Shown here: positions 3,350-40,301 of the stretch, piece by piece
Layout of the letters: the number at the start of each line of letters is the position of its first letter
How positions within the stretch are numbered: the stretch's first letter is position 1
Assembly: GCA_031082285.1 (NCBI GenBank)
Contig: JAVHLK010000026.1
Coordinates: 1 to 58,532 of the forward strand
Origin: Desulfomonilaceae bacterium
Lineage (GTDB): Bacteria; Desulfobacterota; Desulfomonilia; Desulfomonilales; Desulfomonilaceae
Reading direction: 5' to 3'
Length of the DNA: 58,532 bases
Program-made: the position numbers and the translations under genes
Notes under the pieces: model-generated
Seen by the model: the letters and a program-made list of their open reading frames with translations, nothing else
Told to the model about the DNA's origin: nothing
Database searches by the model: none

Positions 3350-3635
3350 GGGCGCTTCTCCTCGACCCTTGGGAACGATACGCTCGATCCGATTTATATA
3401 CTGTTGGGGGAGGTTGATCAACCAAGAAATCTCGTACCGATTCTGCGAGATGATATTGACCCGCTCCGGAGGCGTTCATTCCCAATGTATGATTCGAGGG
3501 ACCGATGGGTAGGGCTTGGCGAGGGAAAGCCGGCCCCGGCGTCAGGGACGGCTTTCCATTGGAATGTATGTGATATCGTGTACGGGAAACATGGTGATGA
3601 CTAAGCGAGGCGTTCCTGTCCTATCCGATCGATTC

Positions 3636-3827
3636 TCATGCCGCGACCACGTCGTCTTCTTCAATGGGCCAGCGTCCTTCGTTGAGCCAACGGACTAGGG
3701 AAGCGTCTATGGCGTCTTCGAAAACGTCGCAACGTGCAGCTATTTCCTTAAAGGAAAGACCCTGCTTAAGCATATTGTGAATGTTTTCGGGAGTCATTCG
3801 GACTCGAGTGCCTTCCATCTTTAGCAT
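3636..3827 (-). CDS. Small helix-turn-helix-like protein, unknown function
   Basis: 63 residues. The start codon at 3827 has an excellent ribosome binding site (AAGGAG seven bases upstream), which makes translation likely. The middle, SFKEIAARCDVFEDAIDASLVRWL, written here only as residues 25-48, reads like a helix-turn-helix of the kind in small MerR/Cro-like or DUF433-type proteins. The C-terminus is acidic. It lies just beyond the terminator of the lon operon, so it needs its own promoter; AT-rich sequence at 3850-3875 could hold one but no clean hexamer pair is visible. No partner gene is adjacent. It could be an orphan antitoxin-type regulator. Confidence 0.55.
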   Translation of the reverse strand: MLKMEGTRVRMTPENIHNMLKQGLSFKEIAARCDVFEDAIDASLVRWLNEGRWPIEEDDVVAA

Positions 3828-3900
3828 AAGTCGCTCCTTCTCGGCCTATTATCTTCTCTTATAAGATATCTCACTTGGCCGAAGGTTCCCCCCTCTTCGC

Positions 3901-3954
3901 AAAAAAAAACTCGTCCTTTCAACGGCGGCTAACTATTAGTCTCTCTGACGAGTT
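3901..3954 (-). terminator. Rho-independent terminator of the tig-clpP-clpX-lon operon
   Basis: Read on the minus strand, AACTCGTC (3947-3954) pairs with GACGAGTT (3908-3915) across a 31-base loop and is followed by a run of nine T (3901-3909). It lies about 90 bases after the lon stop codon. Confidence 0.75.
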
Positions 3955-3969
3955 CCACTGTCTTTTCTT

Positions 3970-4005
3970 GGGTCGGGTCATTTCTCTTCCAACGAGACCC
4001 GACCC
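3970..4005. repeat. GC-rich hairpin downstream of lon
   Basis: GGGTCGGGTC (3970-3979) and GACCCGACCC (3996-4005) form a perfect 10-bp stem with a 16-base loop. There is no T-run after it on either strand. It may stabilise the mRNA 3' end upstream of the true terminator at 3901-3954. Confidence 0.6.
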
Positions 4006-4045
4006 GTTGGTTCCATTCGACGTCGGCCGGAATCGCTTCCGGATT

Positions 4046-6454
4046 TCATTGCTTGAGATGAAACGAAGCTTCGACGTCCAACGAGTCTCCCGGGAATACC
4101 GTCTGTTCAATGTCCGGGAAAATTATTCCAAGTACCTCATCCATGTGATCCACCGAGACTATCTCAAGGCCCTTTCGGATTCGTCTCGGCACTTCCTTCA
4201 GTTCCTTCTCATTTTCGCGGGGAATGATAACCCGTGACATCAGGCCGCGCTTGGCTGCCAAGAGCTTTTCTTTGAGTCCTCCGATGGGCAACACCCGACC
4301 GCGTAGGGTAATCTCCCCCGTCATTGCGAGGTCATTAGGAAAAGGCTTCTTGGTGAGTGCCGAAACAAGGGCACACGTAATGGTTATGCCCGCGGAAGGA
4401 CCGTCTTTTGGGGTTGCCCCTTCAGGAACATGGATATGGATGTCGATCTTGTTGTAAAAGTCTCCTTTGAGGTTGAGGCCCCACGCTCGCGACCGGACAT
4501 AACTCAATGCCGCCTGAGCCGATTCCTGCATTACCTCTCCCAGTTTTCCCGTGACGGTAAGCTTTCCGGAACCGGGCATCAGCGCCACTTCCACGACGAG
4601 TAGTTCACCGCCGAATTCGGTCCAAGCCAAACCGGTGGCCACGCCGATCTTGTGTTCTTCTTCGCGGGTGCCGTAGCGAAATTTGGGAACGCCCAGATAT
4701 TTTCCCATGTCGCCGGGCTCCAAGGTAATCCCGCCCGGTATATCGCCGCTCACTACCCTGCGTACTATCTTGCGACACACTTTGGATATCTGCCGTTCGA
4801 GGTTGCGAACACCGGCCTCACGGGTGTAGCGTCGAATCATTCGAATAACCGAGCCGTTGGAGAAGCTGATCGCCTCTCCGGAAAGACCGTTGGCCTCCAG
4901 CTGCTTGGGAACAAGAAATTGCTGGGCAATTCTGAGTTTCTCCAGCTCCGTGTAGCCGGCAAGCCGAATGATCTCCATGCGGTCCTGAAGAGGTGCCGGG
5001 ATGCCGTGCAGCGTATTGGCGGTAGTGATGAACATGACCTGTGACAGGTCGTAATCCACATCCAGATAGTGATCGTTGAACGCATGATTCTGCTCGGGAT
5101 CCAAAGCCTCCAGGAGCGCAGCGGAAGGATCGCCGCGAAAATCCATGCTCATCTTGTCCACTTCGTCCAGAAGCATTACCGGGTTGATCGTCGCCACCTT
5201 CTTCATGCTCTGGATGATCTTTCCCGGCAGCGCGCCGATGTACGTGCGACGATGTCCCCTAATCTCCGCCTCGTCCCGTACCCCGCCCAAGGAAATGCGA
5301 ACAAATTCCCTGCCCGTCGCGCGCGCCACGGACTTGGCAAGAGAAGTCTTGCCCACGCCGGGCGGACCGACGAGGCACAGAATCGGCCCCTTGGTCTTTT
5401 CAACGATCTTCTGGACCGCAAGATATTCGATAATCCTTTCCTTCACCTCTTTCAGCCCATAGTGGTCCTCATCGAGGACTCGCTGTGCATCGTCAATGGT
5501 GAGATCGGATTGCGAGGCTTCCGTCCAGGGCAGCACCAGGAACCAGTCCACGTAGTTGCGCACTACGGTGGCCTCCGCGGACATGGGGGACATGAGTTTA
5601 AGTTTTCGTATTTCCTTGCGGACCCTTGCCTCAGGCTCCGGGGGTAACTTCTTATTGGCGAGCTGCTCTTCCAGATCGGCAATCTCGTTCTTGAAGTCGT
5701 CCTTGTCCCCCATTTCTTTCTGGATGGCACGCATCTGCTCGTTGAGATAATACTCTTTCTGGCTCTTCTCCATCTGCTTCTTGACGCGTTCCCGAATCTT
5801 CTTCTCTATCTCCGCAATCTCCACCTCGCTCTGCATGAGTTCGAGCAGTTTCTCGATGCGTTGCTTGACGGACGAACGCTCAAGCAGGTCCTGCTTATCC
5901 TCCATCTTGAGGTTCAGCTGTCCCGCGATCGTATCCGAGAGTCTGGCCGCGTCCGTCATGGAGCGGACGGATGCAATGAATTCTTGCGCGATCTTCTTGT
6001 TGTGGGTCAGGTAATTTTCGAAAACCATCTTCAGGCTGCGTACCAAAGCCTGTAATTCTATTTCTCGTTCAGATATCTCGTCCTCTCGGACCAGGACCTC
6101 CACCTTGAAGAATCGGTCATTCTCCAGGAAATTGCGAATAAAACCTCGCTTACGGCCCTCGACAAACACCTTGATGGTGTTGTCGGGCAGTTTCAGCATC
6201 TGAATGATTTGGCCCAACGTGCCGACTTCAAGAATATCCTCTTCCGTGGGATTGGTCTGTTGAGCCGTCCTCTGCGATGCCAGGAATATCATCTTGTCCG
6301 ACTTCATCGCAGACTCAAGAGCCCTAATCGAACGTTCTCTTCCAACAAACAGAGGCACTACCATGTGAGGAAACACCACTATGTCTCTGAGAGGCAGAAG
6401 CGGCAGCACCACGGTTTCTGAGGAAGGATTATCTTCCTTCTTTGCAAAAAACAT
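4046..6454 (-). CDS. lon: ATP-dependent Lon protease (LonA)
   Basis: 802-residue LonA-type protease, usual length, which degrades misfolded and regulatory proteins in the cytoplasm. Order: N-terminal substrate-binding domain (about 15-210), coiled-coil region (about 210-270), AAA+ module with Walker A GPPGVGKT (363-370) and a Walker B around LLDEVDK, then the C-terminal peptidase domain. The catalytic Ser687 sits in PKDGPSAG and Lys730 in GGLKEK; their 43-residue spacing equals that of the Escherichia coli Ser/Lys dyad. It is the last gene of the tig-clpP-clpX-lon series and is followed by an intrinsic terminator. The 200-base gap before it could hold a separate promoter; none stands out. All key residues are present. 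Confidence 0.98.
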
Positions 6455-14601: not shown

Positions 14602-16149
14602 ATGGAAAAAGCAAAGAGAATCCTCCGGAGACTCTCCTTCGTGACGAACGCGGAGTTTCTTGTCGGCGGCGTGTTCCTTGTGTCGGGAGTGATCGTCGGC
14701 TGGAACGGGATCGAGAGACTTCAGCTCTTATATCATGAGTTGTCGGATTACTTTCCTCTGAAACTCCCGGAAAATCTCTCCCAGATCCTCCTCCATTCCT
14801 TCCCCCTCATTTTCAAAACGTTTGTGAACACCGTCGGATCGGCCTGCGCGGTGATCATGGGGGTGCTGTGGACTCTGAGCGGGCTCGGCGAGGCGTTTGA
14901 GAGCCGCAAGAAACCTCCTCACGCCCCGGACCTGGAGAAACCGGAAGTCGTTGCCGAATCCCTGCGGTCGGCACAGTCGCTTTATTGGCGGAGTATGTCT
15001 CTGCCCATCCGTATAACGGCCGGAGTTCTTCCAAGAGCCCGTTTGATCAGCCCCATAACGTACGAGATGTTTCGCCGAGTGCTCGTCTCCATCGGCAAGA
15101 TGGTCTTGCTTGGGGCTTTCATCGCTTTGATACTCTATGTGCTTGGAATGGTCCCGGTACTGGCACACAACCATCTGCAATGGGAAATTCGGTTGGCGGT
15201 CCCATCGGGCTATCCGCTTTATCTTGTCTTGGCTCTTCTCATCATTGCGAACCTGCTCATCGCGGCGAGTCTCATTCCCTACAGGCGGAGGGAATATGCC
15301 CGCCATTGTGAGACGATGCCGGTATGCGGCAGGGGCGATCCACACGTGTTCTTTGCACTTCTGGAAGAAGGCTGCAGGCTCTTGAGTGCCCAAGGCCCGG
15401 CGCGGAATAGTCCTTACCGCGTTGAGCGGGCGGACAATCCCGTCATCAAGGGAACTCTTATCGAGAGCAACCCGAAGGGGATGCCGTCACCGGCAAGGCC
15501 CGCAGGATACTTTTGCCTGCCCTTGATTCCGTTGTTGTTGTCCGCGGGGTTTTCCAGACTGACCCATTTCAGCCCTGAAGTCTCGTCGATCTACTTCACC
15601 AATTTCTTATCGCTCCATCTCCTTGACTATGTCCTCGAGGTAATCCTTGCATTGGCGCTTATTCTGAGTGGTGTGTACTTCGGCGAATGGGCGAGGAAAC
15701 TACTGGGAGTGACTCGGTTTCAGTCCGCTTTTGTGTTTTGCAGCCTCGTGGCGGAAAAAGCGACGGGGTCGGCGGCCTCGGCTTACTCCAGCCGGAGGGG
15801 ACCCGGAATCTCGCGGCTCCCGGAATGGAGAGCCGCCGAGGGATTGGATGAGGCGTTTGCTCGTTGGGCCAAAAATCCCGGTACGGAAAGGGACTTCCTC
15901 GTGGAAATTTGTTGGGCCGAAGCCGTATCCGAATCCGAATCCGCGACCGAGGAAGGTCCGCGCTATCTCACCGGCATGACCAAATCAGAGGTTCTTCAGG
16001 ATTCGATGCAGCGGTTGATTCAGCTCCCGTTTCACGTGGACCTTCAACCGGCCTTGTGCGGTGACCCGCCGACTGCTCCCACGTACTCCGGATCCGGGCT
16101 TCAGGAGTCGCCCAAACAACGCGAAGAGCCGCCAAGCGGCGACAAATGA
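14602..16149 (+). CDS. Multi-pass membrane protein of unknown function
   Basis: 515 residues. Hydrophobic segments at about 18-38, 70-95, 160-185, 205-228, 305-322 and 340-365 suggest about six transmembrane helices. A loop of 70 residues lies between helices four and five, and a C-terminal soluble tail of about 150 residues follows, which becomes Pro/Ser/Glu-rich at the end. No family or motif was recognised. The start ATG at 14602 has only a weak upstream site. It is monocistronic and convergent with acsE. Composition matches neighbouring genes, so recent transfer is not suggested. Confidence 0.6.
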   Translation: MEKAKRILRRLSFVTNAEFLVGGVFLVSGVIVGWNGIERLQLLYHELSDYFPLKLPENLSQILLHSFPLIFKTFVNTVGSACAVIMGVLWTLSGLGEAFESRKKPPHAPDLEKPEVVAESLRSAQSLYWRSMSLPIRITAGVLPRARLISPITYEMFRRVLVSIGKMVLLGAFIALILYVLGMVPVLAHNHLQWEIRLAVPSGYPLYLVLALLIIANLLIAASLIPYRRREYARHCETMPVCGRGDPHVFFALLEEGCRLLSAQGPARNSPYRVERADNPVIKGTLIESNPKGMPSPARPAGYFCLPLIPLLLSAGFSRLTHFSPEVSSIYFTNFLSLHLLDYVLEVILALALILSGVYFGEWARKLLGVTRFQSAFVFCSLVAEKATGSAASAYSSRRGPGISRLPEWRAAEGLDEAFARWAKNPGTERDFLVEICWAEAVSESESATEEGPRYLTGMTKSEVLQDSMQRLIQLPFHVDLQPALCGDPPTAPTYSGSGLQESPKQREEPPSGDK

Positions 16150-16305: not shown

Positions 16306-17196
16306 TCAGACCTCAAGCCAGGAGTGAGAGTATAGGGAATGGCCCAAGAGCAGTTTGGCGGTTTTCACGTAATCCACCTCTTTCTTGTCCATTCCGGAGG
16401 TATCGACCTCATCGCCGTCCATAACGCGACCCACCAGTGTTTCAAGCTCCATGGACTGGTCATGTGCAATCTTCACGATCTCTTCATCGAAACCGTCCAG
16501 GATGGCCGATGTAATGCCGCATTTCTTGAGCATGCACAGATACACCTGGTTAAGTATGTCCCGGAGGTCATCCGGAGACCCGTTTGACACGTTGGAAAGG
16601 CCGCAGGTGGATTTGCATCCGGGAGCCAGGTCGGGGAGCCACTGCATAAAGGTCGTGCATCCCTGGAGCTCCTGTTGCTGGGACGAAACCGGGACCACGA
16701 TGGGGTCGAACCAGATCCTCTCCAGGGAAATCCCATGTTCGGCAGCCTGCGTCATCATGCTGTCCAGAAGTATGGTGCGCTCGTTTTCGTCCCTAGGTAT
16801 TCCGTCGGGACCCCACATCAGACCCACCATGTCACAGTTGTATTTGGTGACGAGCGGTAATTGGAGGGCCATACGCTCGGGTGTGGCCATGATGGAGTTA
16901 ATGACCGCGGGTCCGCCTTTTATCTGATAGACCTGAAGGCCTGCTTCAATGGCTTCATTGTTGGTCGTGTCGAGGAAGAGCGGAAGGTCGGTCACTTCCT
17001 GAACGGTCTTTACAAGCCATTGCATCATTTCCGGACCGCCTTTGCGAGCCGGTCCCAAGTTCAGATCGAGCAGATCCGCACCTTTTTCCGTGAGCTTCTC
17101 CGCCCATTCCTGGATCGGCTTGGGATCCTTCTCCCTCATCGCGGTGCCGGTGTACTTGGACATGATATTTATGTTTTCAGCCACCACGTTAATCAT
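16306..17196 (-). CDS. acsE: Methyltetrahydrofolate:corrinoid iron-sulfur protein methyltransferase
   Basis: Transfers the methyl group of methyl-H4folate to the Co(I) of the corrinoid protein AcsCD. It belongs to the pterin-binding TIM-barrel family. Visible signatures are AENINIMSK near the start, LLDLNLGPAR for pterin binding (about 40-50), FLDTTN, and CGLSNVSNGSP (about 200-210), matching known MeTr sequences. About 296 residues, slightly longer than the usual 260-270. The start is placed at 17196, where AGGAGG lies eight bases upstream; the open frame runs on to 17241 without such support. It is the last gene of the acs operon, separated from acsC by a 343-base spacer full of inverted repeats. 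Confidence 0.93.
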   Translation of the reverse strand: MINVVAENINIMSKYTGTAMREKDPKPIQEWAEKLTEKGADLLDLNLGPARKGGPEMMQWLVKTVQEVTDLPLFLDTTNNEAIEAGLQVYQIKGGPAVINSIMATPERMALQLPLVTKYNCDMVGLMWGPDGIPRDENERTILLDSMMTQAAEHGISLERIWFDPIVVPVSSQQQELQGCTTFMQWLPDLAPGCKSTCGLSNVSNGSPDDLRDILNQVYLCMLKKCGITSAILDGFDEEIVKIAHDQSMELETLVGRVMDGDEVDTSGMDKKEVDYVKTAKLLLGHSLYSHSWLEV

Positions 17197-17539
17197 TGAC
17201 TGTACCTCCTGATTTGGCTCCTGTTCCGACGCGGAACGCAACTACATAACAAGGCAAGATACCATAGTCCTGCCATGGATCAAAGGGTAATACGCGGCAC
17301 GGCACCTACGCACACACGCGCATGTTGTGAGCATGGGCTCGACGTGTACCGGCCGTTCCGCCGTTGTGCTTACTACCGAATCCCGCGTCGCACGGGATTC
17401 ACGAGAATTCTCGCATGCCGTATCTTACTATGGCGCCGGAGCATCCGTGAAAACCAATATCCGTCGGTAAGCAAGCCTGCGGGGAAGAGCGATTCTCTCG
17501 TCCCCGTAGGCAGGCATTACTGTTGGAACATGGTATCGG
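17197..17539. repeat. acsC-acsE spacer with three inverted repeats
   Basis: No gene is visible in this 343-base spacer. It holds GAATCCCG/CGGGATTC (17378-17385 and 17393-17400, seven-base loop), a perfect 12-base palindrome CGAGAATTCTCG (17402-17413), and a stem of 11 pairs with one wobble, GCCTGCGGGGA/TCCCCGTAGGC (17475-17485 and 17501-17511). These may be a dispersed repeat cluster, mRNA processing sites or attenuators that lower acsE expression relative to acsC. Confidence 0.55.
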
Positions 17540-18880
17540 TTACGCGTAGTTCTGACGAAGGTAGGCCGGAATATGCGCACCTTCCCTGGGGCCGATTGCG
17601 ATTTCCCAATCGGGCAGCTCTTCCTCCAGGTCTCCGCTGATAATCGCCGCCGCGCCGGGTATGATGAGCTTTCTCGTCTTCGTTTTCTCTTCGATCCCGG
17701 ATTTCTTGACAAACGGGCCGATCAAGTCGCCGACGAACTTGCCCGCGGCCCACGCGGTAAGAACGGATAGACCGTCGGTGTTGAGCACCAGCAGCCATGA
17801 AGGTACACGGCTGGACTCAACCTCTCCCGATACGATGAAGTACGTAAGGGAAAAATTGCTCGTAATCAGAATCGGCGAATCGTCTCCCGGCGTCCCGATG
17901 GGGTAGATCCCCTGCTCGGTGGTCATGGGCCTCTGAGGATCCGTGAATATGTTCAGCCGCTGCAGCAGCAGTGGGAACAGCACTTCTCCTCTGAAGTCGC
18001 TCAGGATCGCGATGCCGCCGTACTTGGAAATGAAGGTTCCCGCGGTTATGGCCTCATCCACCGGATTGTCCGCCATCTCACAGGGAAACACGATGGTCGG
18101 GAATCCCAGGGGCCGATAGAGCTTCTCGAGGGCCAGTCGTCGTATCAACACCTGATCGCGGATAAGTTCGGACATCTTGCGTGAACCGGAATCGAGCACG
18201 ATATCCTTGTGGCCCTTTTCGACCAATTTTGCGCTGAGTCGAGCCACATCACCCACTTTGTCGGCCTTTACGGTCAACGGGCAATCAAACTCCTTGGCCA
18301 ACGCGGACACGTCGTCCAGATTCGCGGCCGTGGCCGCGTAAAGAAGAGGCTTCTGTGTGCCGACTTCGGCCAATGCGGCTTTGAGAGTGTCCACATTGTC
18401 GCTCATCAAGACGAGTGCCGCACCGGCATCCGATGCTTTCTTCGCAACTTGAGCAAAGCGGCCGGGATCGCCCCCGTCCTTTACTGCGACGAGCTCGGCC
18501 TTGAGCGTCAAGCCGACTCGCTCGTAGCTGAGTTCCTTAAAGGCCTTGAGTTTTTCATCAATGGTCGCGTCGTCTTCGGACGCGGCCACGAGGCAACCCA
18601 GGGCCGTGGGATTGTTAAAGGTTTTTTCATGCCTGAAAAGAACCGTTTCTCCTCCGGCTTTCACCGCGTTGTCTCCGGCACCAATCTGTACCGTCCGGAT
18701 CGGAGGTGCCGAAGCGGAAGCCAGTTTCTCACGCGCCTCGTCCGACACGTACGGGCATTGATCAAGCTCGGCCTTGCCCGCAGCCAGGTTCATCGCGAAA
18801 GCGAGGCACGTGGGAACGCCACATTCCGCGCAGTTCTTCTTGGGCATCATTTTGAATATCTGAATTCCGGAAAGCGCCAT
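17540..18880 (-). CDS. acsC: Corrinoid iron-sulfur protein large (gamma) subunit
   Basis: 446 residues, the usual length for bacterial AcsC. It carries the methyl group on a cobamide between AcsE and AcsB. The N-terminal domain binds a [4Fe-4S] cluster through C17, C20, C25 and C42 (spacing 2-4-16), within KKNCAECGVPTC. A TIM-barrel domain and a C-terminal Rossmann-like cobamide-binding domain (about 320-446) follow. AGGAGG lies nine bases before the ATG. The gene follows acsB after a 138-base gap containing a strong hairpin (18952-18981). Its partner small subunit, AcsD, is here the N-terminal part of the fusion protein. Confidence 0.96.
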   Translation of the reverse strand: MALSGIQIFKMMPKKNCAECGVPTCLAFAMNLAAGKAELDQCPYVSDEAREKLASASAPPIRTVQIGAGDNAVKAGGETVLFRHEKTFNNPTALGCLVAASEDDATIDEKLKAFKELSYERVGLTLKAELVAVKDGGDPGRFAQVAKKASDAGAALVLMSDNVDTLKAALAEVGTQKPLLYAATAANLDDVSALAKEFDCPLTVKADKVGDVARLSAKLVEKGHKDIVLDSGSRKMSELIRDQVLIRRLALEKLYRPLGFPTIVFPCEMADNPVDEAITAGTFISKYGGIAILSDFRGEVLFPLLLQRLNIFTDPQRPMTTEQGIYPIGTPGDDSPILITSNFSLTYFIVSGEVESSRVPSWLLVLNTDGLSVLTAWAAGKFVGDLIGPFVKKSGIEEKTKTRKLIIPGAAAIISGDLEEELPDWEIAIGPREGAHIPAYLRQNYA

Positions 18881-19017: not shown

Positions 19018-21225
19018 TCAACCGACGATCGGATCCATGGTCACCGCGGGATGACCTTTCTCTTCGAGGAAGGGATAGATCTCGTCTTCCGTCACACCGA
19101 CGCTCTCGTCCGCGATCTTGTCGGCAAGATTTGAAACGCCCAGTTCCTCGCCCCGCTCGTTGATCTTGTCTCGGAGCATCTCTTTGAGAGCCTTCGGCAG
19201 CCATACCAGCCGCTTGATGCCTCCTTCGGCCGAGATGAATTTCTTCGAGCCGATATAGAGCTTGCTGTGACCGACGAATCCAGGCGTAATGTTGCCGCCT
19301 CCGGCACTGCCCGCCAGGGTCGTGAACTTCATCCCGCACGGCGTGGGGCCTTTGTAGTCTCGATCGACGCTCATGACTCCATTGGCCACGGGAAGGACCG
19401 CGGCGATGCACTCGAAGCACCCGCAGGAGGTCATGGGGTCTTCCATGATCGAATAGGCGTTGTACTTCTCGACCTTGCCACGGGATGCCTGCTGCACGAA
19501 GGCGTTGACGCCCTCCCATTGACCGAGCCGCTCATCGAGGACTTTCCCTTTTTCGATCGGCTGGTTCGGACCGGTGGGGTTGATCTCGAATGACGCTTTG
19601 CAGTCGAGCCAGTTGTACGCGCCGCAGAGGCCGGTACGCTCGGGCGTGACTACGCAGACGTGGGACGGTGCAAAACTCTGGCAAAGCGTGCAGGAGTAGA
19701 AGGTCGCCTCGTCTTCATCGGTCATGCCTTCCACACGGGCGTCTCTCTTCGTGTAGACCTCCTTGGCCTGTGCCAAAAGCTTGTCCACATCCGCCTGGTC
19801 GGTGAATATCTTCACCTGAACCTTGTCGAGTACCGATCCGAAGTCCTGATGGAATTTGGCGTGCAGAATGGAACCGATGTGGCCCAGGGTAAAACCTTTG
19901 TCGATTGCACCCTTTCCGATGCGGACCCACGCAATGTCCCTCTGTCCGATGTGCATCAGGCCCTGAGCATAGTTGATCAGGTGGTGAATCTGACGCTCCA
20001 GGATGGGCTCGAAGTCGCTCTGCATCTTGCGGCCCGCCACCTCTACGAGTATACCCAGCGGCACTCTCGTTCCGGGCTGGATGTCTTTCATGTCGGGTCC
20101 GAAAACCTCTACCTTGCCATCCTCCACCTCGTTCATATCTTTCATGACGGTGAGCTCGACGGCCTGAGTCTTGCCGCCGCCCGCCTCCATGAAGATATCG
20201 TCTCCGCGGATCCGCTCGCCCTCGAACGCGGGACCGTATGCCACAGGAACCGGCACTTCGGTGACGGTAACCTTGAGTCCGCGGACTTCAATGGCCTTGG
20301 AGACGATCTCGTTGTGCGGAATGTTCGACACCACGTGCTCGTACGTGCACACACCCGTGGGGAGTATTTGCGGGATCGGCGTGTCCGCTATGGTGGGAAA
20401 ACCGTAGTTGATGACGCCTGCCGCGGCGGCATACCACTCGTCCGAAACATCTCCCAGGGCCAGCACGAACGCAAAGACACGGTCCTTGTTATAGATCAGG
20501 ACCTTGCGAAAGTCGCCCGGCTCGATTCCACCGAAGCTCAGCGCGGCGCGGGTCGCGAACCCCACTGCAAAGATCGCCGAGGAGATGTCCGGGCCGAAGG
20601 GGACGAGACGCGTAGGCCAGCCGATCTGCACGCCGGCGTCGACGAGCTGTTGGGAAAACGTCGTGCCGTTGTGCTGCGCGGCCATGAAGACGTACAGGTT
20701 CTTCTTCTGAAGCTCCAACGCCATTTCCGCCGCGATTTCCTTGGTCGGAGCGGAGCCCACGACGGCCGCGAATCCGGGCGCGGTGCCGTCCACGAATTCA
20801 ACGCCGCGTTTCCTGAGGATAACGTCGTCGGCGGCCCCCAACCACAGCTTCTCGTCTGTGGGATCCTCCGCGGGAAGATAAAAGTCCGGATCTTCGAGGT
20901 ATCGAATGGCCTCGATGATCTCGTAGTTGAACAGACTGGCCATACCCGCGTCCAGTACCGGTCCGAGGTAAGGCAGAGGCGTCTTTTCTCGGACAGGCGG
21001 GGGAATGAGCTGCTCGGAACGATCGAGCACTATGCCCGCATCTCCGAGGTTCTGAACCGGGAAGCCCAGGATGCCGTAGATTACGGGCAGGTAGTAGCCG
21101 GTATTGGGGAAAGAGATTTCCTTCTTTTTTCCGTACTTCTTTACGGCTTGCTCGTATTTCTTGCGGGCCTTTTCATAGACCTTGTGAGCGCCGGATATTA
21201 CGTTTGCTGCTACGATCTTGGACAC
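19018..21225 (-). CDS. acsB: Acetyl-CoA synthase catalytic subunit
   Basis: 735 residues, full-length bacterial type (the Moorella enzyme is 729). It condenses CO, the methyl group from the corrinoid protein and CoA at the Ni-Ni-[4Fe-4S] A-cluster. The ligands are all present: C512, C515, C524 and C534 for the cubane, and C601-G-C603 for the two nickels, at a constant offset of six from the Moorella numbering. The N-terminal domain (about 1-310), which contacts CODH and forms the CO tunnel in bacterial enzymes, is present, unlike in short archaeal CdhC. The start is a GTG at 21225 with AGGAGG nine bases upstream. It follows the AcsD-AcsA fusion gene after 91 bases. Confidence 0.97.
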   Translation of the reverse strand: MSKIVAANVISGAHKVYEKARKKYEQAVKKYGKKKEISFPNTGYYLPVIYGILGFPVQNLGDAGIVLDRSEQLIPPPVREKTPLPYLGPVLDAGMASLFNYEIIEAIRYLEDPDFYLPAEDPTDEKLWLGAADDVILRKRGVEFVDGTAPGFAAVVGSAPTKEIAAEMALELQKKNLYVFMAAQHNGTTFSQQLVDAGVQIGWPTRLVPFGPDISSAIFAVGFATRAALSFGGIEPGDFRKVLIYNKDRVFAFVLALGDVSDEWYAAAAGVINYGFPTIADTPIPQILPTGVCTYEHVVSNIPHNEIVSKAIEVRGLKVTVTEVPVPVAYGPAFEGERIRGDDIFMEAGGGKTQAVELTVMKDMNEVEDGKVEVFGPDMKDIQPGTRVPLGILVEVAGRKMQSDFEPILERQIHHLINYAQGLMHIGQRDIAWVRIGKGAIDKGFTLGHIGSILHAKFHQDFGSVLDKVQVKIFTDQADVDKLLAQAKEVYTKRDARVEGMTDEDEATFYSCTLCQSFAPSHVCVVTPERTGLCGAYNWLDCKASFEINPTGPNQPIEKGKVLDERLGQWEGVNAFVQQASRGKVEKYNAYSIMEDPMTSCGCFECIAAVLPVANGVMSVDRDYKGPTPCGMKFTTLAGSAGGGNITPGFVGHSKLYIGSKKFISAEGGIKRLVWLPKALKEMLRDKINERGEELGVSNLADKIADESVGVTEDEIYPFLEEKGHPAVTMDPIVG

Positions 21226-21316: not shown

Positions 21317-24300
21317 TTATCCGGCTATTTCTCTCCTCATGGCCATGTCCATGAGCACTCTTTCTCTTGCCTTGTCGATACCCAGTGCAGACCGAGCCGC
21401 GTCGATCCGGGCAAGACACCGTTTGGCCATCTCGTACGGATCCTTCTCGACGAAGTCCCAACGACCGCCGTATGTCTTCTCGATGTCCTTGAAGAGATAG
21501 TTGGTGCAGACGTCCTCATTGATAGTGGGGAATCCGACCCCGAGGAGGACGTATACCCCTGACGCTACGAAGTACTGGCCGATGGAAATGGCTTTTTCGC
21601 TCATCCACTCCGGTGCCACGCCGACAGCGGGGATTTCCGAGATGTCATCGCCCAAACCGCCGTCCCGAACAACCGCGGTGGCCGCCATGAGGATCCTGGA
21701 GTTATCAACACACGAGCCCATGTGGAGCACCGGGGGAATGCCGACGGTCTCGCACACCTCTGCAATGCCCTCCCCTCCGTACTTTCGGGCAGCCTCCGGA
21801 GTAAGTAGGCCCGCCTTGCCCAAGGCAATGGCCGCGCATCCGGTCGTCAACACGAGCACGTCGTTCTTTATCAGCTCCTTGGCCAGTTCGACGTGGAGGT
21901 AATCCTGGCTGACACGGGCATTTCCGCATCCCACGATCCCCGCCAGGCCTCGAATGCGGCCGTTGATGATGTTGTCGTTGAGCGGTCGATAGCTTGCCCG
22001 GAACATGCCGCCGAGCATATAGTTGATGGTTTCATGGCTGAATCCGACCACCATGTCTTGCTGTTCACTCGGGATAGAGACCTTCCCCTTGTCGCGGTTC
22101 GGGAAGTTGTCGATCGCGTCGCGCACGATTGCCTTGGCGGTTTCAAGCCCATAACGCTCATCATACGCATAGTGTTTGTAGGCTCCCTGCATCTTCGCGA
22201 TGGGGCTTGTCGTCACAATTTGAGTGTGGAAGCACTTGGCCAGTTCCGCGACGCCCTGCATGATGCACTGGACATCCACTACCATGGTCTCGAGAGCGCC
22301 GGTGATGATCGCCAGCTCCTGCTGCAGATAGTTGCCCGCTACAGGAATCCCGTGACGCATCAGGATCTCGTTGGAGGTACAGCAGATGCCTCCCAGGCTG
22401 ATTCCGCCCGTCGCTCCCTTGCTCTGGGCATACGCTATCATCTCCGGGTCCTGAACCGCCTGGACGATGATTTCGGACAATGACGGCTCGTGACCGTGAA
22501 CAATGATGTTGACCGTGTCTTCCTTCATGCATCCGAGGTTGACCTTGCCGAGAATCGGTACGGGCGTCCCGTACAGAATGTCCGAAAGATCCGTGGCGAT
22601 CATGGACCCGCCCCAACCATCCGCGATAGCGCATTTCGTGGCCAAGCGGATGATGTGTTCCATTTCCTGATTGACTCCCATGTGGGTCATGTGCATGACC
22701 TCCACCACGGGTCGATCGATGCCTGCGGGGATCACTCCTTCTTTTCTCCAGATCTCCTGGCGCTTTAACGGAGCTCGTTTGACAAACTGTATTTCGCCGT
22801 CCTGTTGGCCGTACTGGGCTAAAGCTTTCTCGCCGACTTCTATGGCGATTTCTTTGATTTCCCTTCCTTCGGTCTCGATGCCGAAATCCATCGCGATAGC
22901 GAGTAGTTTGGGAATGTCCTTGATCTGGTAGTCGGGGAGTTCGCCTTTTGCGGCATGGAGGAAGGTATGAGCCACATGGCGTCCGTGATCGCTGTGCGCC
23001 GCCGCGCCTGCCGCAACCATCCGTGCGAAGTTACGAGCCGCGATGGTTTCGGGGGTTGCGCCGCAGAGGCCGCATCTCTTCTTGCGTTCTTCCGGCGTTT
23101 CCGTTTTGCCCTTGGGAGGAAGCACCCTACACGGACCCATATTGCAGATCTTGCAGCATGTTCCCCCTTTCCCAATGGGGCAGGCGGTCATAGTCCGAGA
23201 GCGATGGAACGCGGTCGTGTGGCCCAGCTCGTCGGCCCTCTTAAGGCCTTCCAGTGAAACCGAGTCGATGGTGTGTTTTGTCCAGTCGGCCGGGGGAATT
23301 TCCTTCTTCTTGGGGGGAGGAGCGGCGACGGCCGGAGCTGCGGGAGCAGCTGCCGGGGTTGCGGCAGGAACCTGGCCGGAAACCAGAGATCCCAGCCCGG
23401 AGGCCAGGTTCTTGACGGCCCTGAACACTCCTACCATCTCTTTCAAACCTTGAATATCTTCCTTGGTCAATTGTCCCATAAGTTCTTCCTCTTCCAATGC
23501 TGCGGCAGCAGCGGGTTTTACAGCCGGGGGAGCCTTTTCTTCCTTAGGAGCGAGCTTGGGTGCCGCCGCGGGCTTGGGCGCCGCTTCAGGTTTCGGCTCC
23601 GCAGCTTTTACCGGCTTGGCTTCTTCTTTCTTGGGAGTCGGCTTCGGAGGTTCCGGAGTCTTCTTTTCCGCGGGCTTGGGTGCCGCGGCTTTTTCCGGCG
23701 GAGGTGCCGCCTCCCCGGCAAGGGAAAGATCCACATCCATGGCTGCAAGGTCCGTCTCGACCATGACGTCCGAGAGGTACTTGCGGATGTGTTCGAGCGT
23801 CTTGGGATGCCTGAGGATCAGGAGATCGGACCCGGCCTGCAGGGCACTCAACGCGGTGATGGCTTCGAGGTTGATTCCCCGAATTCCCGCGTCCCCGAGC
23901 TTAGGCTCCTGTTCGGTGGGGAGTTTGGCTTCTTTTGTCTTCCACACCTCTTCGGCTATATTGTTGACGATCGGGTACTGGAGCTTGTCATCATTCTGCG
24001 TCAAAGCGGCCTGCCGTATTCGCTCCATGATGGAATAGCAGTATTCCATTCCGTAGCCTACACTGCCGGTAGTCGGATCGATCAGAATTTTGTCGTTGGG
24101 AACGCCCAGATTCTCAAGGAGAATGTTGAGCTGCTTGGCAAGATTGATGTCGATGGGGGAGTTCGCCGCCACAACGTGCTTATATGCAATCGCGGCCGCC
24201 CCAACTTGTTTGTAATTCCCTTCGGTGATCGGTCCCAGCACCACGTTCAGGCCCGCGCAGGACTCGGCCACGGCCTTGAGCACTTCGGTGTTCTTGTCGT

Positions 24301-24697
24301 CGCTGGACACCCCCCAGACGATCAACGGAACACTGATGGCCTCGGCCACTTTCTTGGCGATTTCAGCCGCATGCGCCGCAGGCAGATCCTTGCCGTTGGG
24401 GTCGGTTCCGGCAAGCCAAAGACAAACCACGTCGGCCTTGTACTCTTCGACGCATTTCTTGGCCCAGGCCACCGGGTCTTTCACCACGTCCTTGAAAGGT
24501 TCAAGCGCTTCTGCGGCCCATTCTTCGGGCTCTATATCCAGGACCTGAAGGGCAAGCTTTGGGGCATTTGGCGTCTTGCCCTCAAAAGAGTAGAAATTGT
24601 AGGCCGTTTCACCACCGACGACCACTTCTGACCCGGGTTTGCCGAGTTTGATTTCGCGAATTGTTCCTGTGTACTTCACCTTTGGCAGTTCAGCCAT
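21317..24697 (-). CDS. acsD-acsA: Fusion of corrinoid protein small subunit (AcsD) and CO dehydrogenase (AcsA/CooS)
   Basis: One uninterrupted 1126-codon frame. Residues 1-330 are a complete AcsD (delta subunit; the Moorella protein is about 323). Residues 331-405 are an Ala/Pro/Lys/Glu-rich linker, 406-440 a short predicted helix, 441-468 a second Ala/Pro linker. Residues about 469-1126 are a complete Ni-Fe carbon monoxide dehydrogenase. CODH ligands seen: C506 and C514 (D-cluster); C515, C518, C523 and C545 (B-cluster), with an extra C542; H734 or H736, C772 or C773, C811, C924, C954 and C996 (C-cluster region). CODH reduces CO2 to CO for AcsB; AcsD pairs with AcsC to carry the methyl group. 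The start at 24697 has AAGGAAGG upstream. An internal ATG (residue 407, base 23479) is preceded by AGAGGAAG, so a separate 720-residue CODH may also be made. No stop or frameshift separates the parts. Confidence 0.93.
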   Translation of the reverse strand: MAELPKVKYTGTIREIKLGKPGSEVVVGGETAYNFYSFEGKTPNAPKLALQVLDIEPEEWAAEALEPFKDVVKDPVAWAKKCVEEYKADVVCLWLAGTDPNGKDLPAAHAAEIAKKVAEAISVPLIVWGVSSDDKNTEVLKAVAESCAGLNVVLGPITEGNYKQVGAAAIAYKHVVAANSPIDINLAKQLNILLENLGVPNDKILIDPTTGSVGYGMEYCYSIMERIRQAALTQNDDKLQYPIVNNIAEEVWKTKEAKLPTEQEPKLGDAGIRGINLEAITALSALQAGSDLLILRHPKTLEHIRKYLSDVMVETDLAAMDVDLSLAGEAAPPPEKAAAPKPAEKKTPEPPKPTPKKEEAKPVKAAEPKPEAAPKPAAAPKLAPKEEKAPPAVKPAAAAALEEEELMGQLTKEDIQGLKEMVGVFRAVKNLASGLGSLVSGQVPAATPAAAPAAPAVAAPPPKKKEIPPADWTKHTIDSVSLEGLKRADELGHTTAFHRSRTMTACPIGKGGTCCKICNMGPCRVLPPKGKTETPEERKKRCGLCGATPETIAARNFARMVAAGAAAHSDHGRHVAHTFLHAAKGELPDYQIKDIPKLLAIAMDFGIETEGREIKEIAIEVGEKALAQYGQQDGEIQFVKRAPLKRQEIWRKEGVIPAGIDRPVVEVMHMTHMGVNQEMEHIIRLATKCAIADGWGGSMIATDLSDILYGTPVPILGKVNLGCMKEDTVNIIVHGHEPSLSEIIVQAVQDPEMIAYAQSKGATGGISLGGICCTSNEILMRHGIPVAGNYLQQELAIITGALETMVVDVQCIMQGVAELAKCFHTQIVTTSPIAKMQGAYKHYAYDERYGLETAKAIVRDAIDNFPNRDKGKVSIPSEQQDMVVGFSHETINYMLGGMFRASYRPLNDNIINGRIRGLAGIVGCGNARVSQDYLHVELAKELIKNDVLVLTTGCAAIALGKAGLLTPEAARKYGGEGIAEVCETVGIPPVLHMGSCVDNSRILMAATAVVRDGGLGDDISEIPAVGVAPEWMSEKAISIGQYFVASGVYVLLGVGFPTINEDVCTNYLFKDIEKTYGGRWDFVEKDPYEMAKRCLARIDAARSALGIDKARERVLMDMAMRREIAG
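23477..23492 (-). promoter_or_regulatory. Possible internal translation start for a separate CODH
   Basis: Within the fusion gene, an in-frame ATG (23477-23479) codes for Met407 in the linker. On the minus strand AGAGGAAG lies about seven bases before it, a good Shine-Dalgarno sequence and spacing. Glu/Lys-rich codons can give such sequences by chance, so this is suggestive only. Confidence 0.45.
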
Positions 24698-29178: not shown

Positions 29179-30879
29179 TTATATCAGAATTACATCCGTA
29201 ATGGACTTGCCGGCGGGGATCATTGGATAGACACCCTCTTCGCGCTCGACGACAAAGTCCATGATTACGGGCCCATCCGTCTCCAGGGCCTGTTTGATGA
29301 CCGGGACCACTTCTTCCGTGGTCTCTGCGCGAAGGCCCAGCGCGCCATAGGCGTCGGCGAGTTTGATGAAATCGGGCGCGCACATGATGTCCGTGTGAGC
29401 GTACACGTTGTCGTAGAATCGCTCCTGCCACTGTCTCACCATGCCGAGGTATCCGTTGTTCAGGATTGCGATCTTGACGGGAAGCTTGTATTGAGCCACC
29501 GTGGCCAGCTCCTGAATATTCATTTGAATGGAACCGTCTCCCGCGATGTCGATCACCAGTTTGTCGGGAAAGGCCACCTGAGCGCCGATGGCTGCGGGGA
29601 AGCCGTATCCCATGGTTCCGAGACCGCCGGACGACAAGAAGGTTCGGGGCTCGTCGAAAAGGTAGTACTGCGCGGCCCACATCTGGTTCTGACCGACCTC
29701 CGTGCTGATGATGGCGCGGCCCGCGGTCATTTCATAGAGTTTCTCCACCACGTACTGCGGCTTGATGGTGGTCGTGGTCCGATCGAACCTGAGTCGTTGC
29801 TCGTTTCGCCACGCGGTGATTTGGGCATGCCAGCCCGTAAGTTTCTCCTTGTTGACGGTCTGCGGTCCGCGTTCCTCCAGGATTTCGATGAGCCTGGAAA
29901 GGGCGTCACGGGCATCACCGACGAGTGGGACGTCGACTTCTATGTTTTTCTGAATTGACGTGGGGTCGATGTCCACGTGGATGATCTTTGCCCCTCGGGC
30001 AAATTCCGACACCGGACCCGTCACTCGGTCGTCGAACCGCGCTCCCACGGCAAAGAGCAAATCCGAATCATTCACGGCCATATTTGCGCGGTAGGTCCCA
30101 TGCATTCCAAGCATTCCCAGCGACAACGGATGCGTACCGGGAAAACAACCAAGACCCATGAGGGTCATGGTGACCGGAAAGCCGGTCATTTCCGCGAGTG
30201 TGCGGAGTTCCGCATGTGCACCCGAGGTAATGACGCCGCCGCCTGCATAGATGACGGGTCTTTCCGCTTGACAAATAAGATCGGCTGCCCGCCTTATCGA
30301 CGGAAGGTGCGCCTTGACGGTCGGCTTGTACGTGGGAAGCTCTATCGAGGTCGGATAGTCCCATTGGGCGGTTGACTGGGTAACGTCCTTCGGGAGGTCT
30401 ACAAGCACGGGACCCGGGCGCCCGCTTGCAGCAATGGTAAAAGCCTCTTTCACCGTTCGTGCCAGTTCGTCCGTCGACATCACGAGATAGTTGTGCTTCG
30501 TGCACGGTCGTGTGATTCCCACAATGTCGGCTTCCTGAAACGCGTCGTTGCCGATAAGACCCGTCGGCACCTGGCCGGTAAATACCACAATGGGAATGGA
30601 GTCCATGTAGGCCGTTGCCAAACCTGTGACCGTGTTTGTTCCTCCGGGACCGGAGGTCACGATGCATACTCCCGGCTTGCCCGTGGCCCGCGCATACCCG
30701 TCCGCGGCATGCACCGCGGCCTGTTCGTGCCGAACGAGTATGAATTTGAAATCGTCGGAGAATGTCCTGACCATGGCATCGAAGATGTCAATGACCATTC
30801 CTCCGGGATATCCAAATATCGTGTCAACACCCTCTTGCTTGAGGGATCTCAGTAAGATTTCGTCTCCCCTCATCTCCAC
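29179..30879 (-). CDS. ilvB: Acetolactate synthase large catalytic subunit
   Basis: 566 residues. It condenses two pyruvate (or pyruvate and 2-oxobutyrate) using thiamine diphosphate, the first common step of valine, leucine and isoleucine synthesis. The ThDP-dependent layout is complete: N-terminal PYR domain with the catalytic Glu region ([16 protein letters not shown]), central FAD-binding domain, C-terminal PP domain with GDGSIQMN...ILNN (about 450-480). The start is a GTG at 30879 or an ATG two codons later; AAGGA upstream fits the GTG better. ilvH follows immediately. Confidence 0.97.
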
Positions 30880-31480: not shown

Positions 31481-31930
31481 CTATTTCGTTTCCGGCCGGG
31501 AACCGCCTTCGGCCGGTTGCCCCGTCTTGTCCGGTGCCTGCACGTCCGGCTTCGCCTCGGTCGACGCCCCGGCCTGCGGCGTCGCAGCCGGTATTGCTCC
31601 CGGACCCTCAGGCCCTCCCGCGCCGGTCTCGGGCCCGGGAAGCGGAGCCTGTGGGACGGGAGTTTCCGTCACAACGGACCGTTGAATCTGACCCGCTTGC
31701 CTCCCGGACACGTAGGTCAAGACAAACGATGTGGTCATGAATACCACGGCAGCCACAATCGTCACCTTGCTCAGGAACGTCGCTGCACCGCTGCTGCCGA
31801 AAACCGTCTGACTGGATCCCCCTCCGAAAGCGGCCCCTATATCGGCGCCTTTGCCCGTCTGCAGGAGAATGATCAGAATCATCGCCACACAGACGATCAC
31901 ATGAACAATGAGTATAAGCGTACTAAACAT
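31481..31930 (-). CDS. secG: Preprotein translocase subunit SecG
   Basis: 149 residues. Two transmembrane helices (about 2-22 and 52-74) flank the conserved cytoplasmic loop LLQTGKGADIGAAFGGGSSQTVFGS. SecG assists SecYEG channel activity. The C-terminal tail (about 80-149) is unusually long and Pro/Gly/Ala/Thr-rich. It follows tpiA by 21 bases, an arrangement common in many bacteria. Confidence 0.95.
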   Translation of the reverse strand: MFSTLILIVHVIVCVAMILIILLQTGKGADIGAAFGGGSSQTVFGSSGAATFLSKVTIVAAVVFMTTSFVLTYVSGRQAGQIQRSVVTETPVPQAPLPGPETGAGGPEGPGAIPAATPQAGASTEAKPDVQAPDKTGQPAEGGSRPETK

Positions 31931-37886: not shown

Positions 37887-40301
37887 ATGACTCACGCTGT
37901 TTCAAGATTCATTTGCATTCACGGCCACTTCTACCAACCGCCACGAGAAAACCCGTGGCTCGAGTCCATCGAACATCAGGAATCCGCACATCCGTACCAT
38001 GATTGGAACGAGCGCATCGCGGTGGAATGCTATACGCCGAATGCCCATGCCCGAATTCTGGACGAACAGGGCCGGTTGCGGCAAATTATTAACAACTACG
38101 AATACATGAGCTTCAATTTTGGGCCAACCTTGCTTTCGTGGCTCGAACGGCACGTACCGCACACCTATCGGGCCATCCTTGACGCGGATCGAGCAAGCAG
38201 CGCGAGGCTGTCGGGCCACGGCAATGCCATTGCGCAACCGTATAACCACATGATCATGCCCCTGGCTTCCACGCGTGACAAGGTCACGCAGATCCTGTGG
38301 GGCATCGAGGACTTCACGACTCGCTTCAACCGAGCCCCGGAGGGCATGTGGTTGCCCGAGACCGCGGTTGACGCGGAAACGCTCGACCTTCTCGCGCAGT
38401 ACGGCATTCTCTTTACCATACTCGCTCCTACACAAGCTCGTCGGTTCAGGCTTTCACCGGCAGATGCCTGGACCCGTGTCGACGGGTCGGCCTTGGATCC
38501 GTCAGTTCCCTATCTCTGCGGACTTCCCGGGGGAAGGACGATCTCTCTGTTCTTCTACGACGCGCCCATATCCCATGCCGTCGCGTTTGAAAAACTCCTG
38601 GACAGCGGGGATGAATTCCAAAAACGATTGATGGCCGCGTTTTCGTCCCAGGCGAACCGAGCTCAACTGGTGCATGTGGCCACGGACGGAGAATCCTACG
38701 GACACCATCACCGGTTCGGTGAAATGGCCCTTTCTTACGCCATAGAGAAGATCCTGGCCGATCCCGCCGTCCAACTCGTCAATTACGGCTATTTTCTCCA
38801 AGGGCATCCGCCGACCGCGGAAGCGGAGTTCATTGAGGATTCCTCTTGGAGTTGTGCCCATGGAGTGGGCCGATGGTCCCGAGACTGCGGCTGCTCCCTG
38901 TCTCGCAGGTCCGATTGGAATCAAAGGTGGCGCGGCGTGCTGCGAGAATCAATGGACCTCATCCGAGACCGGGTGGATGAGCTTTTCGAGCGTGAGACCG
39001 CTTCTCTCGTCAAGGATCCGTGGGAATTGAGAAATCGGTACATACGGGTCGTCCTCGATCACCACTCAAATCCCGAGGAATTCCTCACGTCCGCAGCTGG
39101 CCGGCACCTTTCCGCGGGTGAATTGCGCACACTGTCCGCGCTTCTGGAAATGCAACGCAATCGCATGCTGATGTACACGAGTTGCGGTTGGTTTTTTGAC
39201 GACATCTCGGGCCTGGAATCACGGCAGGTCCTCCGGTACGCCGCGCGCGTCCTTCAGCTTGCCGAGCCTTGGGATCCCGATCTTCAACCCGATTTTCTGA
39301 CACACATGGCTTCCGCGCTGAGCAATTTAAGGCCCTATCTTCGTGGGGACGAGATTTTTGTGCGGCAGATTCTTCCTCACGTCGCGGATCTCCCCCAAGT
39401 TGCAGCACATATCGGTATCTTCTCACTCTTTAGGAACGTTCCTATAGAAGACGGGTTCTTCTGTTATGAAATGGAGGCCGAGGATTTCAGCAGGTTCGAA
39501 TTCGGCGAACGAGTGCTCATTGTGGGCAGTGTGACGGTCCGAAATCATTTGATCGTCGAAAGTCGGAAGCTCGTCCTGGTGGTGGTCTATTTCGGAGGAC
39601 TGGATTTTCGATGTTCCGTTTCAGACTACGTGAGTAAGACCGGATACTATTCGCTGAAACGCGATCTCTCGGAGACGTTTCAAACCCGATCCGCTACTGA
39701 AGTGGTCCGCAAGCTGGACCGGTATTTCCCGGGGGACTATTTTTCGCTCGAAGATCTCTTCGCGGAGCAGAGAAGTCAGATCATTCAAAGCATCATCCAC
39801 GAGATGTATGAACCGCAGGCGCAACTTTTCGAGGCTTTCTATCATAGAAACAAGGACCTGTCCAGATTCGTCAAGAAGCAGTCGGAACGGGTCGCAGACA
39901 CGTTTCGCGTCTCTGCCCAATTCGTTCTGAACCGGTCCTTTACGAACGAACTGCACAAGCTCGAATCAGGCTCCTTTCCCGAGGGACTGCCTGCTCTGAT
40001 GGATGAGGCCAAGGAGTGGGGGATCCAGCTGGACGTGACCGCCGCGGAAAAGCTTATCAGCAATAGAATTCACGCACTGGCAACCAGGCTGAGAGACGAT
40101 CCTCAAGACGGTACGGTACTCGACGGGATCGAGGGATTTCTGAACCTCGCGAGCGACCTTGAACTGCATCTGCAGCTGGGAGAAGCGCAAATAGTCCTGC
40201 TTAGAATAGCTCGATCTTTCCGCGCCGGCCAGGTTCAGGAACTTCCACGGCGTTTCTGCGACCTGGCCGAGAAACTTGCGGTCAGTACCGACGTGTGTTG
40301 A
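37887..40301 (+). CDS. Glycoside hydrolase family 57 protein with DUF3536 domain
   Basis: 804 residues. The N-terminal GH57 catalytic barrel opens with HGHFYQPPRENPW (about 12-24). The probable nucleophile is Glu158 in EGMWLPET and a candidate acid/base is Asp267 in VATDGES. The C-terminal part (about 440-800) is a large helical region of the kind annotated as DUF3536 in many anaerobes. GH57 enzymes act on alpha-glucans (amylase, branching or 4-glucanotransferase). The exact activity cannot be read, but a cytoplasmic glycogen-processing role is likely as there is no signal peptide. The start ATG at 37887 lacks a strong site. Confidence 0.88.
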   Translation: MTHAVSRFICIHGHFYQPPRENPWLESIEHQESAHPYHDWNERIAVECYTPNAHARILDEQGRLRQIINNYEYMSFNFGPTLLSWLERHVPHTYRAILDADRASSARLSGHGNAIAQPYNHMIMPLASTRDKVTQILWGIEDFTTRFNRAPEGMWLPETAVDAETLDLLAQYGILFTILAPTQARRFRLSPADAWTRVDGSALDPSVPYLCGLPGGRTISLFFYDAPISHAVAFEKLLDSGDEFQKRLMAAFSSQANRAQLVHVATDGESYGHHHRFGEMALSYAIEKILADPAVQLVNYGYFLQGHPPTAEAEFIEDSSWSCAHGVGRWSRDCGCSLSRRSDWNQRWRGVLRESMDLIRDRVDELFERETASLVKDPWELRNRYIRVVLDHHSNPEEFLTSAAGRHLSAGELRTLSALLEMQRNRMLMYTSCGWFFDDISGLESRQVLRYAARVLQLAEPWDPDLQPDFLTHMASALSNLRPYLRGDEIFVRQILPHVADLPQVAAHIGIFSLFRNVPIEDGFFCYEMEAEDFSRFEFGERVLIVGSVTVRNHLIVESRKLVLVVVYFGGLDFRCSVSDYVSKTGYYSLKRDLSETFQTRSATEVVRKLDRYFPGDYFSLEDLFAEQRSQIIQSIIHEMYEPQAQLFEAFYHRNKDLSRFVKKQSERVADTFRVSAQFVLNRSFTNELHKLESGSFPEGLPALMDEAKEWGIQLDVTAAEKLISNRIHALATRLRDDPQDGTVLDGIEGFLNLASDLELHLQLGEAQIVLLRIARSFRAGQVQELPRRFCDLAEKLAVSTDVC

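Follow-up and report, generated by a model that had tools for sequence, protein, structure and literature searches.

A stretch of 58,532 nucleotides from a Desulfomonilaceae bacterium of the phylum Desulfobacterota (the window; assembly GCA_031082285.1, contig JAVHLK010000026.1, positions 1 to 58,532) carries on its minus strand a single gene of 1126 codons (21317..24697; ATG at 24697, end of the stop codon at 21317) that joins AcsD, the small subunit of the corrinoid iron-sulfur protein (CoFeSP), to AcsA, the Ni-dependent carbon monoxide dehydrogenase (CODH). This acsD-acsA fusion is a trait of the family and not peculiar to one genome; it is ordinary there and unusual for the acetyl-CoA pathway. 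Judging from sequence and structure prediction, we consider it fairly probable that the fusion is real and under selection and makes a covalent, flexible tether, which would hold CoFeSP beside the complex of CODH and acetyl-CoA synthase (ACS).

One reading frame for AcsD and CODH

The original prediction had described an in-frame AcsD-CODH fusion at 21317-24697 with two Ala/Pro/Lys linkers. Indeed, the frame runs through all 1126 codons with neither stop nor frameshift, and both linkers are present and predicted to be disordered. The AcsD core occupies residues 1-318 (23744..24697), close to the 1-330 first proposed, the last residues of which belong to the linker. It is delimited by a Pfam CdhD match at residues 15-256, by CoFeSP small-subunit structures (2h9a_B, 4c1n_B, 4djd_D and 9fzy_E, the closest solved structures by sequence over residues 3-314) and by a confident model. 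PF03599 scored 158 bits on the fusion (cut-off 24.8) and the AcsD subfamily model NF003376 396 bits (cut-off 280); the WLP_AcsD model NF040759 (342 bits, cut-off 430), the 432-position AcsD model NF003377 (508 bits, cut-off 527) and the AcsD model TIGR00381 matched below their cut-offs. A first Ala/Pro/Lys/Glu linker follows (residues 319-401, 23495..23743), then the motif EEEELM, a short conserved module (residues 408-434, 23396..23476) and a second Ala/Pro/Lys linker that varies between genomes (residues 435-469, 23291..23395). The CODH itself spans residues 470-1126 and the stop codon (21317..23290) and is complete, as had been predicted for about 469-1126: the Pfam Prismane/CODH match covers residues 513-1087, the bacterial Ni-CODH model CO_DH_cata (TIGR01702) scored 590 bits over residues 484-1107 (cut-off 478), and the closest solved structure by sequence over residues 476-1107 is the CODH of Clostridium autoethanogenum.

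An AlphaFold2 monomer model built on a 51-row alignment (mean pLDDT 81.4) showed two confident domains separated by linkers predicted to be disordered, with a helix between them. The pLDDT was below 50 over most of residues 320-410 (practically throughout 325-410) and again at 429-464; the helix, predicted with low confidence at 412-432, had block means of 58 and 53. Foldseek with this model gave solved CODHs in all of its best 50 rows and added nothing on AcsD. Residues C506, C514, C515, C518, C523, C545, H734/H736, C773, C811, C924, C954, C996, H568/H571 and K1035 were invariant in the seven full-length fusions described below. From motif spacing, we take these to be the ligands of the D-, B- and C-clusters together with acid-base residues, so that the cluster ligands are kept, as had been claimed. 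The D-cluster pattern, C-x7-CC, agrees with type II in the available sections of PMC6344411.

We compared 18 genomes of the family (group f1), including the source genome of the window (314 contigs, 99.9% complete). Full-length fusions were found in seven (G000, G002, G003, G004, G005, G008 and G010, that of G005 in a two-contig assembly), the six others being 82-86% identical to the window's. The frame of three more genomes runs off a contig end: it can be followed without interruption through CODH from the first linker in G007 and G011, and in G015 from as early as the end of AcsD. Contig ends fall within AcsD in the assemblies of these three genomes. Five more genomes (G001, G013, G014, G016 and G017) held only fragments, which cannot be scored as fused or split, and no match was found in two of the 18 (G009 and G012). 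Because the same open frame recurs in seven family assemblies, a sequencing error hiding a stop or frameshift, the refutation foreseen in the original prediction, is contradicted; a sequencing or assembly artefact, for which nothing was found, deserves practically no credence. Among the seven fusions, mean pairwise identity was 84% for AcsD, 88% for CODH and 72% for the helix region, and 45% and 59% for the first (327-401) and second linkers, whose lengths vary between genomes (61-81 and 23-44 residues) while the frame is kept.

Several observations weigh against a selected tether. AcsD and CODH are split genes in G006. Standalone AcsD copies of about 430-460 codons are present in G004, G005, G006, G007 and G011, so free CoFeSP is likely in these five genomes. 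A second CODH, 44-45% identical and without AcsD attached, occurs in G008 (L175) and G001 (C246). The pTM of the fusion model is 0.62, with a pLDDT of only about 50-60 in the helix and a monomer as the modelled state. Last, the hydrophobic moment of helix 412-432 was 0.37 against a shuffled mean of 0.22, with 11.6% of shuffles as high; not being significant for the window protein, it led us to drop the idea of an amphipathic docking helix.

The standalone AcsD copies examined end in a linker and helix similar to those of the fusion, and fused and standalone family copies formed one clade in the AcsD tree (support 100), the internal order of which is not settled. In G004 (L113), the fused (2924-6361) and standalone (16942-18264) AcsD are divergently oriented about 10 kb apart and share 96.6% DNA identity, a likeness that we ascribe to recent duplication or gene conversion; the two copies of G005 lie far apart and share 72.1%. 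The standalone genes of G004 and G006 are located between ilvB-side genes and secG. In the corresponding slot of the window (ilvB, 29179-30879; secG-like gene, 31481-31930), tblastn at E up to 1 found no AcsD remnant, and no second AcsD was detected in the source genome, where a whole-protein search returned the fusion only. With PF03599, a profile search of this genome matched the fusion and acsC; a further four hits, of other kinds, were partial, two of them aligning with the C-terminal part of the profile and two with its middle. PF03063 matched the fusion and one 577-codon frame without a match in the whole-protein search, presumably a hybrid-cluster protein. When four family genomes were searched with a model of the helix module, matches fell on AcsD and CODH only (all others at E 0.64 or more), and in G006 the module is present on both separate proteins.

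The possible former gene border

In split-gene relatives, acsA often begins about 55-100 bases after acsD: the distance is 55-98 bases at nine of 12 listed loci and larger at the other three (446 and 726 bases, L037 being counted with the latter). The acsA leader GAGGAGGAACCTCTGATG occurs in several of them. The fusion reads EEEELM (residues 402-407, 23477..23494) directly before the helix, where the split CODH of G006 starts. Its methionine, M407, was found in all 10 fused frames out of 10 and in none of the four standalone AcsD tails aligned. The sequences suggest that the fusion arose by read-through of the acsA leader, with EEEELM perhaps a remnant of the ribosome-binding site and start codon of acsA (ATG at 23479-23477).

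The old acsA start at M407 may still be in use. One gene would then yield two products, the full fusion and a free CODH from the internal ATG. The universal presence of M407 in fused frames, its absence from standalone tails and the CODH start of G006 all speak for such a double use, as do the bases ahead of M407, which resemble the acsA leader of relatives, and a dip in third-position GC near M407 that lies in the lowest 2.5% of the gene's windows; however, this dip is weak in most relatives and several other columns of the helix module are likewise invariant. Moreover, pairing with the anti-Shine-Dalgarno sequence before M407 showed no excess over synonymous codons (10 genes, 1000 resamplings each): the share of resamplings with equally strong pairing was 0.12-0.74 over the ten genes, with a mean z of -0.36. 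Since the codon test gave no support, we retain the internal start only as a rival, and a rather unlikely one.

AcsD fusions and arms across Desulfobacterota

AcsD was matched in 100 of 148 Desulfobacterota genomes sampled. The search for further AcsD-AcsA fusions and their mapping on trees, which the original prediction had proposed, revealed them across the family and in one genome outside it: AcsD is joined to CODH in three of the 100 AcsD-bearing genomes, namely G000, G004 and G067, the last of another family and with a frame of 1123 codons. AcsD also has other partners. In eight of the 100 it is fused to MetF, which is N-terminal (loci L160-L167, in the order G167, G106, G070, G140, G166, G105, G069 and G182); Pfam MTHFR was confirmed for those of G069, G106 and G182. 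Three further MetF-AcsD loci were found in Desulfobulbaceae (L077, L081 and L099). The MetF-AcsD proteins are 722-1174 codons long and have long low-complexity linkers, with TPR repeats in that of L161. In a sister group within the class (f2, 24 genomes), four genomes had a CODH with strong similarity (G029, G035, G039 and G041), and all four carry ACS and AcsD in one frame of 1169-1197 codons (L108, L109, L110 and L111), that of G035 being cut by the contig end. Two other long frames were rejected as fusions: the 781-codon frame of G301 is a stop-containing stretch, the AcsD frame proper being 319 codons, and the 660-codon frame of G104 overlaps an ACS gene in another frame.

Unfused AcsD is often extended as well. 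Frames of 497-556 codons occur in another 23 of the 100 genomes, and all nine whose DNA was examined have a C-terminal arm of about 180-215 residues; the remaining AcsD frames are mostly of about 300-400 codons. In the comparison phylum, that of a Syntrophomonadaceae genome, where 48 of 149 genomes have AcsD, no AcsD frame exceeded 370 codons (lengths taken from a listing, G301 counted as 319). In an alignment of 22 Desulfobacterota AcsD, the core gives way to an Ala/Pro/Lys linker, behind which most of the proteins have a long Ala/Lys/Glu repeat with a short conserved end. The model of a Desulfospira AcsD has a continuous helix at 403-489 (87 residues; pLDDT block means from about 50 where it begins up to 89) and, at 506-521, a terminal helix. 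Such an Ala/Lys/Glu-rich arm, predicted as one 87-residue helix, with a conserved short end, is seen in the AcsD at L065:4983-6548 and 21 relatives. We take the unfused extension to be an arm that may carry a docking helix.

The MetF fusions all fell in one 13-row branch of the AcsD tree (129 of 132 rows used, three short ones dropped) with a support of 100, together with two non-fused rows, L078, which is broken by unread bases, and L169, in which MetF and AcsD adjoin as separate genes. Three ACS-AcsD fusions formed one branch (support 99). Both kinds sit on other branches than the family fusion, so that by partner the three kinds of AcsD fusion have at least three origins, possibly four. The fourth depends on G067. 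Every tree recovers the family as a single clade, and G067 stands apart from it in the AcsD, CODH and joined trees: it groups with L037 in the CODH tree (support 96) and with six unfused loci in the joined AcsD and CODH tree of 34 hand-chosen loci (support 96/98), and in the careful version of the latter a single change sufficed in 0% of 200 bootstrap trees. Yet approximately-unbiased tests did not reject a single AcsD-CODH origin (p 0.665 for AcsD, 0.586 for CODH, on 62 of 89 rows after removal of three long-branch rows and 24 close relatives, and 0.207 for the joined data); in the AcsD and CODH tests, the tree held to one origin even had the higher likelihood. Because the trees separate G067 and the tests do not reject one origin, one and two origins of the AcsD-CODH fusion are both compatible with the data.

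Gene neighbourhood, proposed tethering and known systems

Downstream of the fusion, on the same strand and 91 bases from stop to start, lies acsB (19018..21225), which encodes ACS with the N-terminal, CODH-binding CODH_A_N domain (PF18537, 97.7 bits; NF040764, 1104 bits). Two genes downstream of the fusion is acsC (17540..18880, minus strand), a separate gene for the CoFeSP large subunit with its FeS domain (Pfam and NCBIfam matches), followed by an acsE-like gene (16306..17241, minus strand) for a methyl-tetrahydrofolate:CoFeSP methyltransferase, the start codon of which is uncertain and the best NCBIfam match of which is below the cut-off. Adjoining this Wood-Ljungdahl cluster is a 515-codon frame without a Pfam match (14602-16149, plus strand). 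Elsewhere the window encodes an 804-codon protein with DUF3536 and glycosyl hydrolase 57 domains (37887-40301, plus strand).

CODH dimers carry ACS, and CoFeSP collects its methyl group at the methyltransferase and delivers it to the A-cluster of ACS. In the fusion, the AcsD part would pair with the separate AcsC to form CoFeSP and the CODH part would form the homodimer carrying ACS, so that any CoFeSP built on this AcsD would be attached to the CODH/ACS core through two arms, of about 85 and about 35 residues, with a short helix between them. This attachment would let AcsC, which bears the cobalamin, travel from methyltransferase to A-cluster and back while staying near, which would raise the local concentration of CoFeSP; judged by their length, about 85 and 35 disordered residues should reach far enough for both tasks. 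We infer tethering in the cell, complex formation, swinging and channelling.

A real fusion could also do no more than have both parts made together or in a fixed 1:1 ratio, with neither distance nor channelling of any importance. Many relatives have acsD and acsA side by side, often with about 55-100 bases between them, so that a fusion arises easily by loss of one stop, and the split genes of G006 and the persistence of standalone AcsD fit this explanation. However, the arms are long and of a similar type, and AcsD has three different partner enzymes and sits at either end of the chain, whereas equal amounts alone predict neither varied partners nor arms on unfused AcsD; we regard this explanation as unlikely. 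Very unlikely, in our view, is a post-translational cut in the linker that leaves the working proteins separate: long disordered Ala/Pro/Lys linkers are easily cut, but the region between the variable linkers showed no conserved motif for cleavage, and we know of no processing protease for the CODH/ACS-CoFeSP complex.

The union of AcsD with MetF, and elsewhere with ACS, and the arms on many more AcsD proteins point to closeness of CoFeSP as the common benefit, and this wider pattern outranks the single fusion in interest. More tentatively, and short of calling it probable, we suggest that AcsD of Desulfobacterota may be a general tethering hub, attached covalently to CODH, MetF or ACS or docking non-covalently by an arm helix. 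The pathway would then work as a swinging-arm machine without free diffusion of CoFeSP, and the family fusion, possibly with an internal-start CODH, would be one version of it.

For the acetyl-CoA pathway, the way in which the methyl carrier reaches ACS is still an open question. The structures studied need added CoFeSP, and at the concentrations needed the micrographs were too crowded by it (2025; PMC12289521, available sections). A natural CODH-AcsD chain would fix the partners at 1:1 and could ease capture of the methyl-transfer state. The three kinds of fusion amount, moreover, to an experiment of nature on the question of which step benefits from closeness, and their linkers are ready-made parts for pathway engineering. 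All together, the fusion and its counterparts in relatives suggest that these bacteria use flexible arms to tie the moving parts of the pathway together.

In the accessible portions of PMC12289521, PMC11474084, PMC12827605, PMC10553843, PMC5736913, PMC2702500 and PMC6344411, we found no description of AcsD-CODH, MetF-AcsD or ACS-AcsD fusions, and the words 'fusion' and 'fused' are absent from the accessible main text of PMC12827605 (2026), which treats this pathway in Desulfobacterota. The bare existence of AcsD-CODH chains may already be on record, since Supplementary Table 1 of PMC6344411 (2019), as referred to in its accessible part, classifies fused Ni-CODHs.

The window's system resembles the bacterial CODH/ACS of the Moorella and C. 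autoethanogenum type in its bacterial CODH, its ACS with an N-terminal domain, AcsC, AcsD and an AcsE-like methyltransferase, and differs in that AcsD and CODH are one chain. They had been said to be separate in the well-known bacterial enzymes, in agreement with PMC11474084, whose available text calls the acetogen protein standalone and has the archaeal complex (ACDS) hold CoFeSP by assembly of separate subunits. The likeness to the archaeal complex that had been drawn holds as an analogy of function, CoFeSP being held with CODH and ACS, but not of kind: both enzymes are of bacterial type, the N-terminal domain of the window's ACS is absent from archaeal ACS, and cdhA, the model for archaeal CODH, scored 55.6 bits on the fusion against a cut-off of 781. 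The swinging arm of 2-oxo acid dehydrogenase E2 has Ala/Pro-rich flexible linkers and a small helical module between domains. The fusion has Ala/Pro/Lys linkers predicted to be disordered and a small predicted helix between its two domains, but the likeness is one of analogy only, and the fusion has no lipoyl domain. The extended AcsD of Desulfobacterales and relatives (NF003377) shares the C-terminal Ala/Pro/Lys arm, which there leads into a long Ala/Lys/Glu helix followed by a short helix at the terminus, without CODH. The MetF-AcsD and ACS-AcsD proteins of other Desulfobacterota likewise attach AcsD to a pathway neighbour through long low-complexity linkers, with another partner and with AcsD at the C-terminal end.

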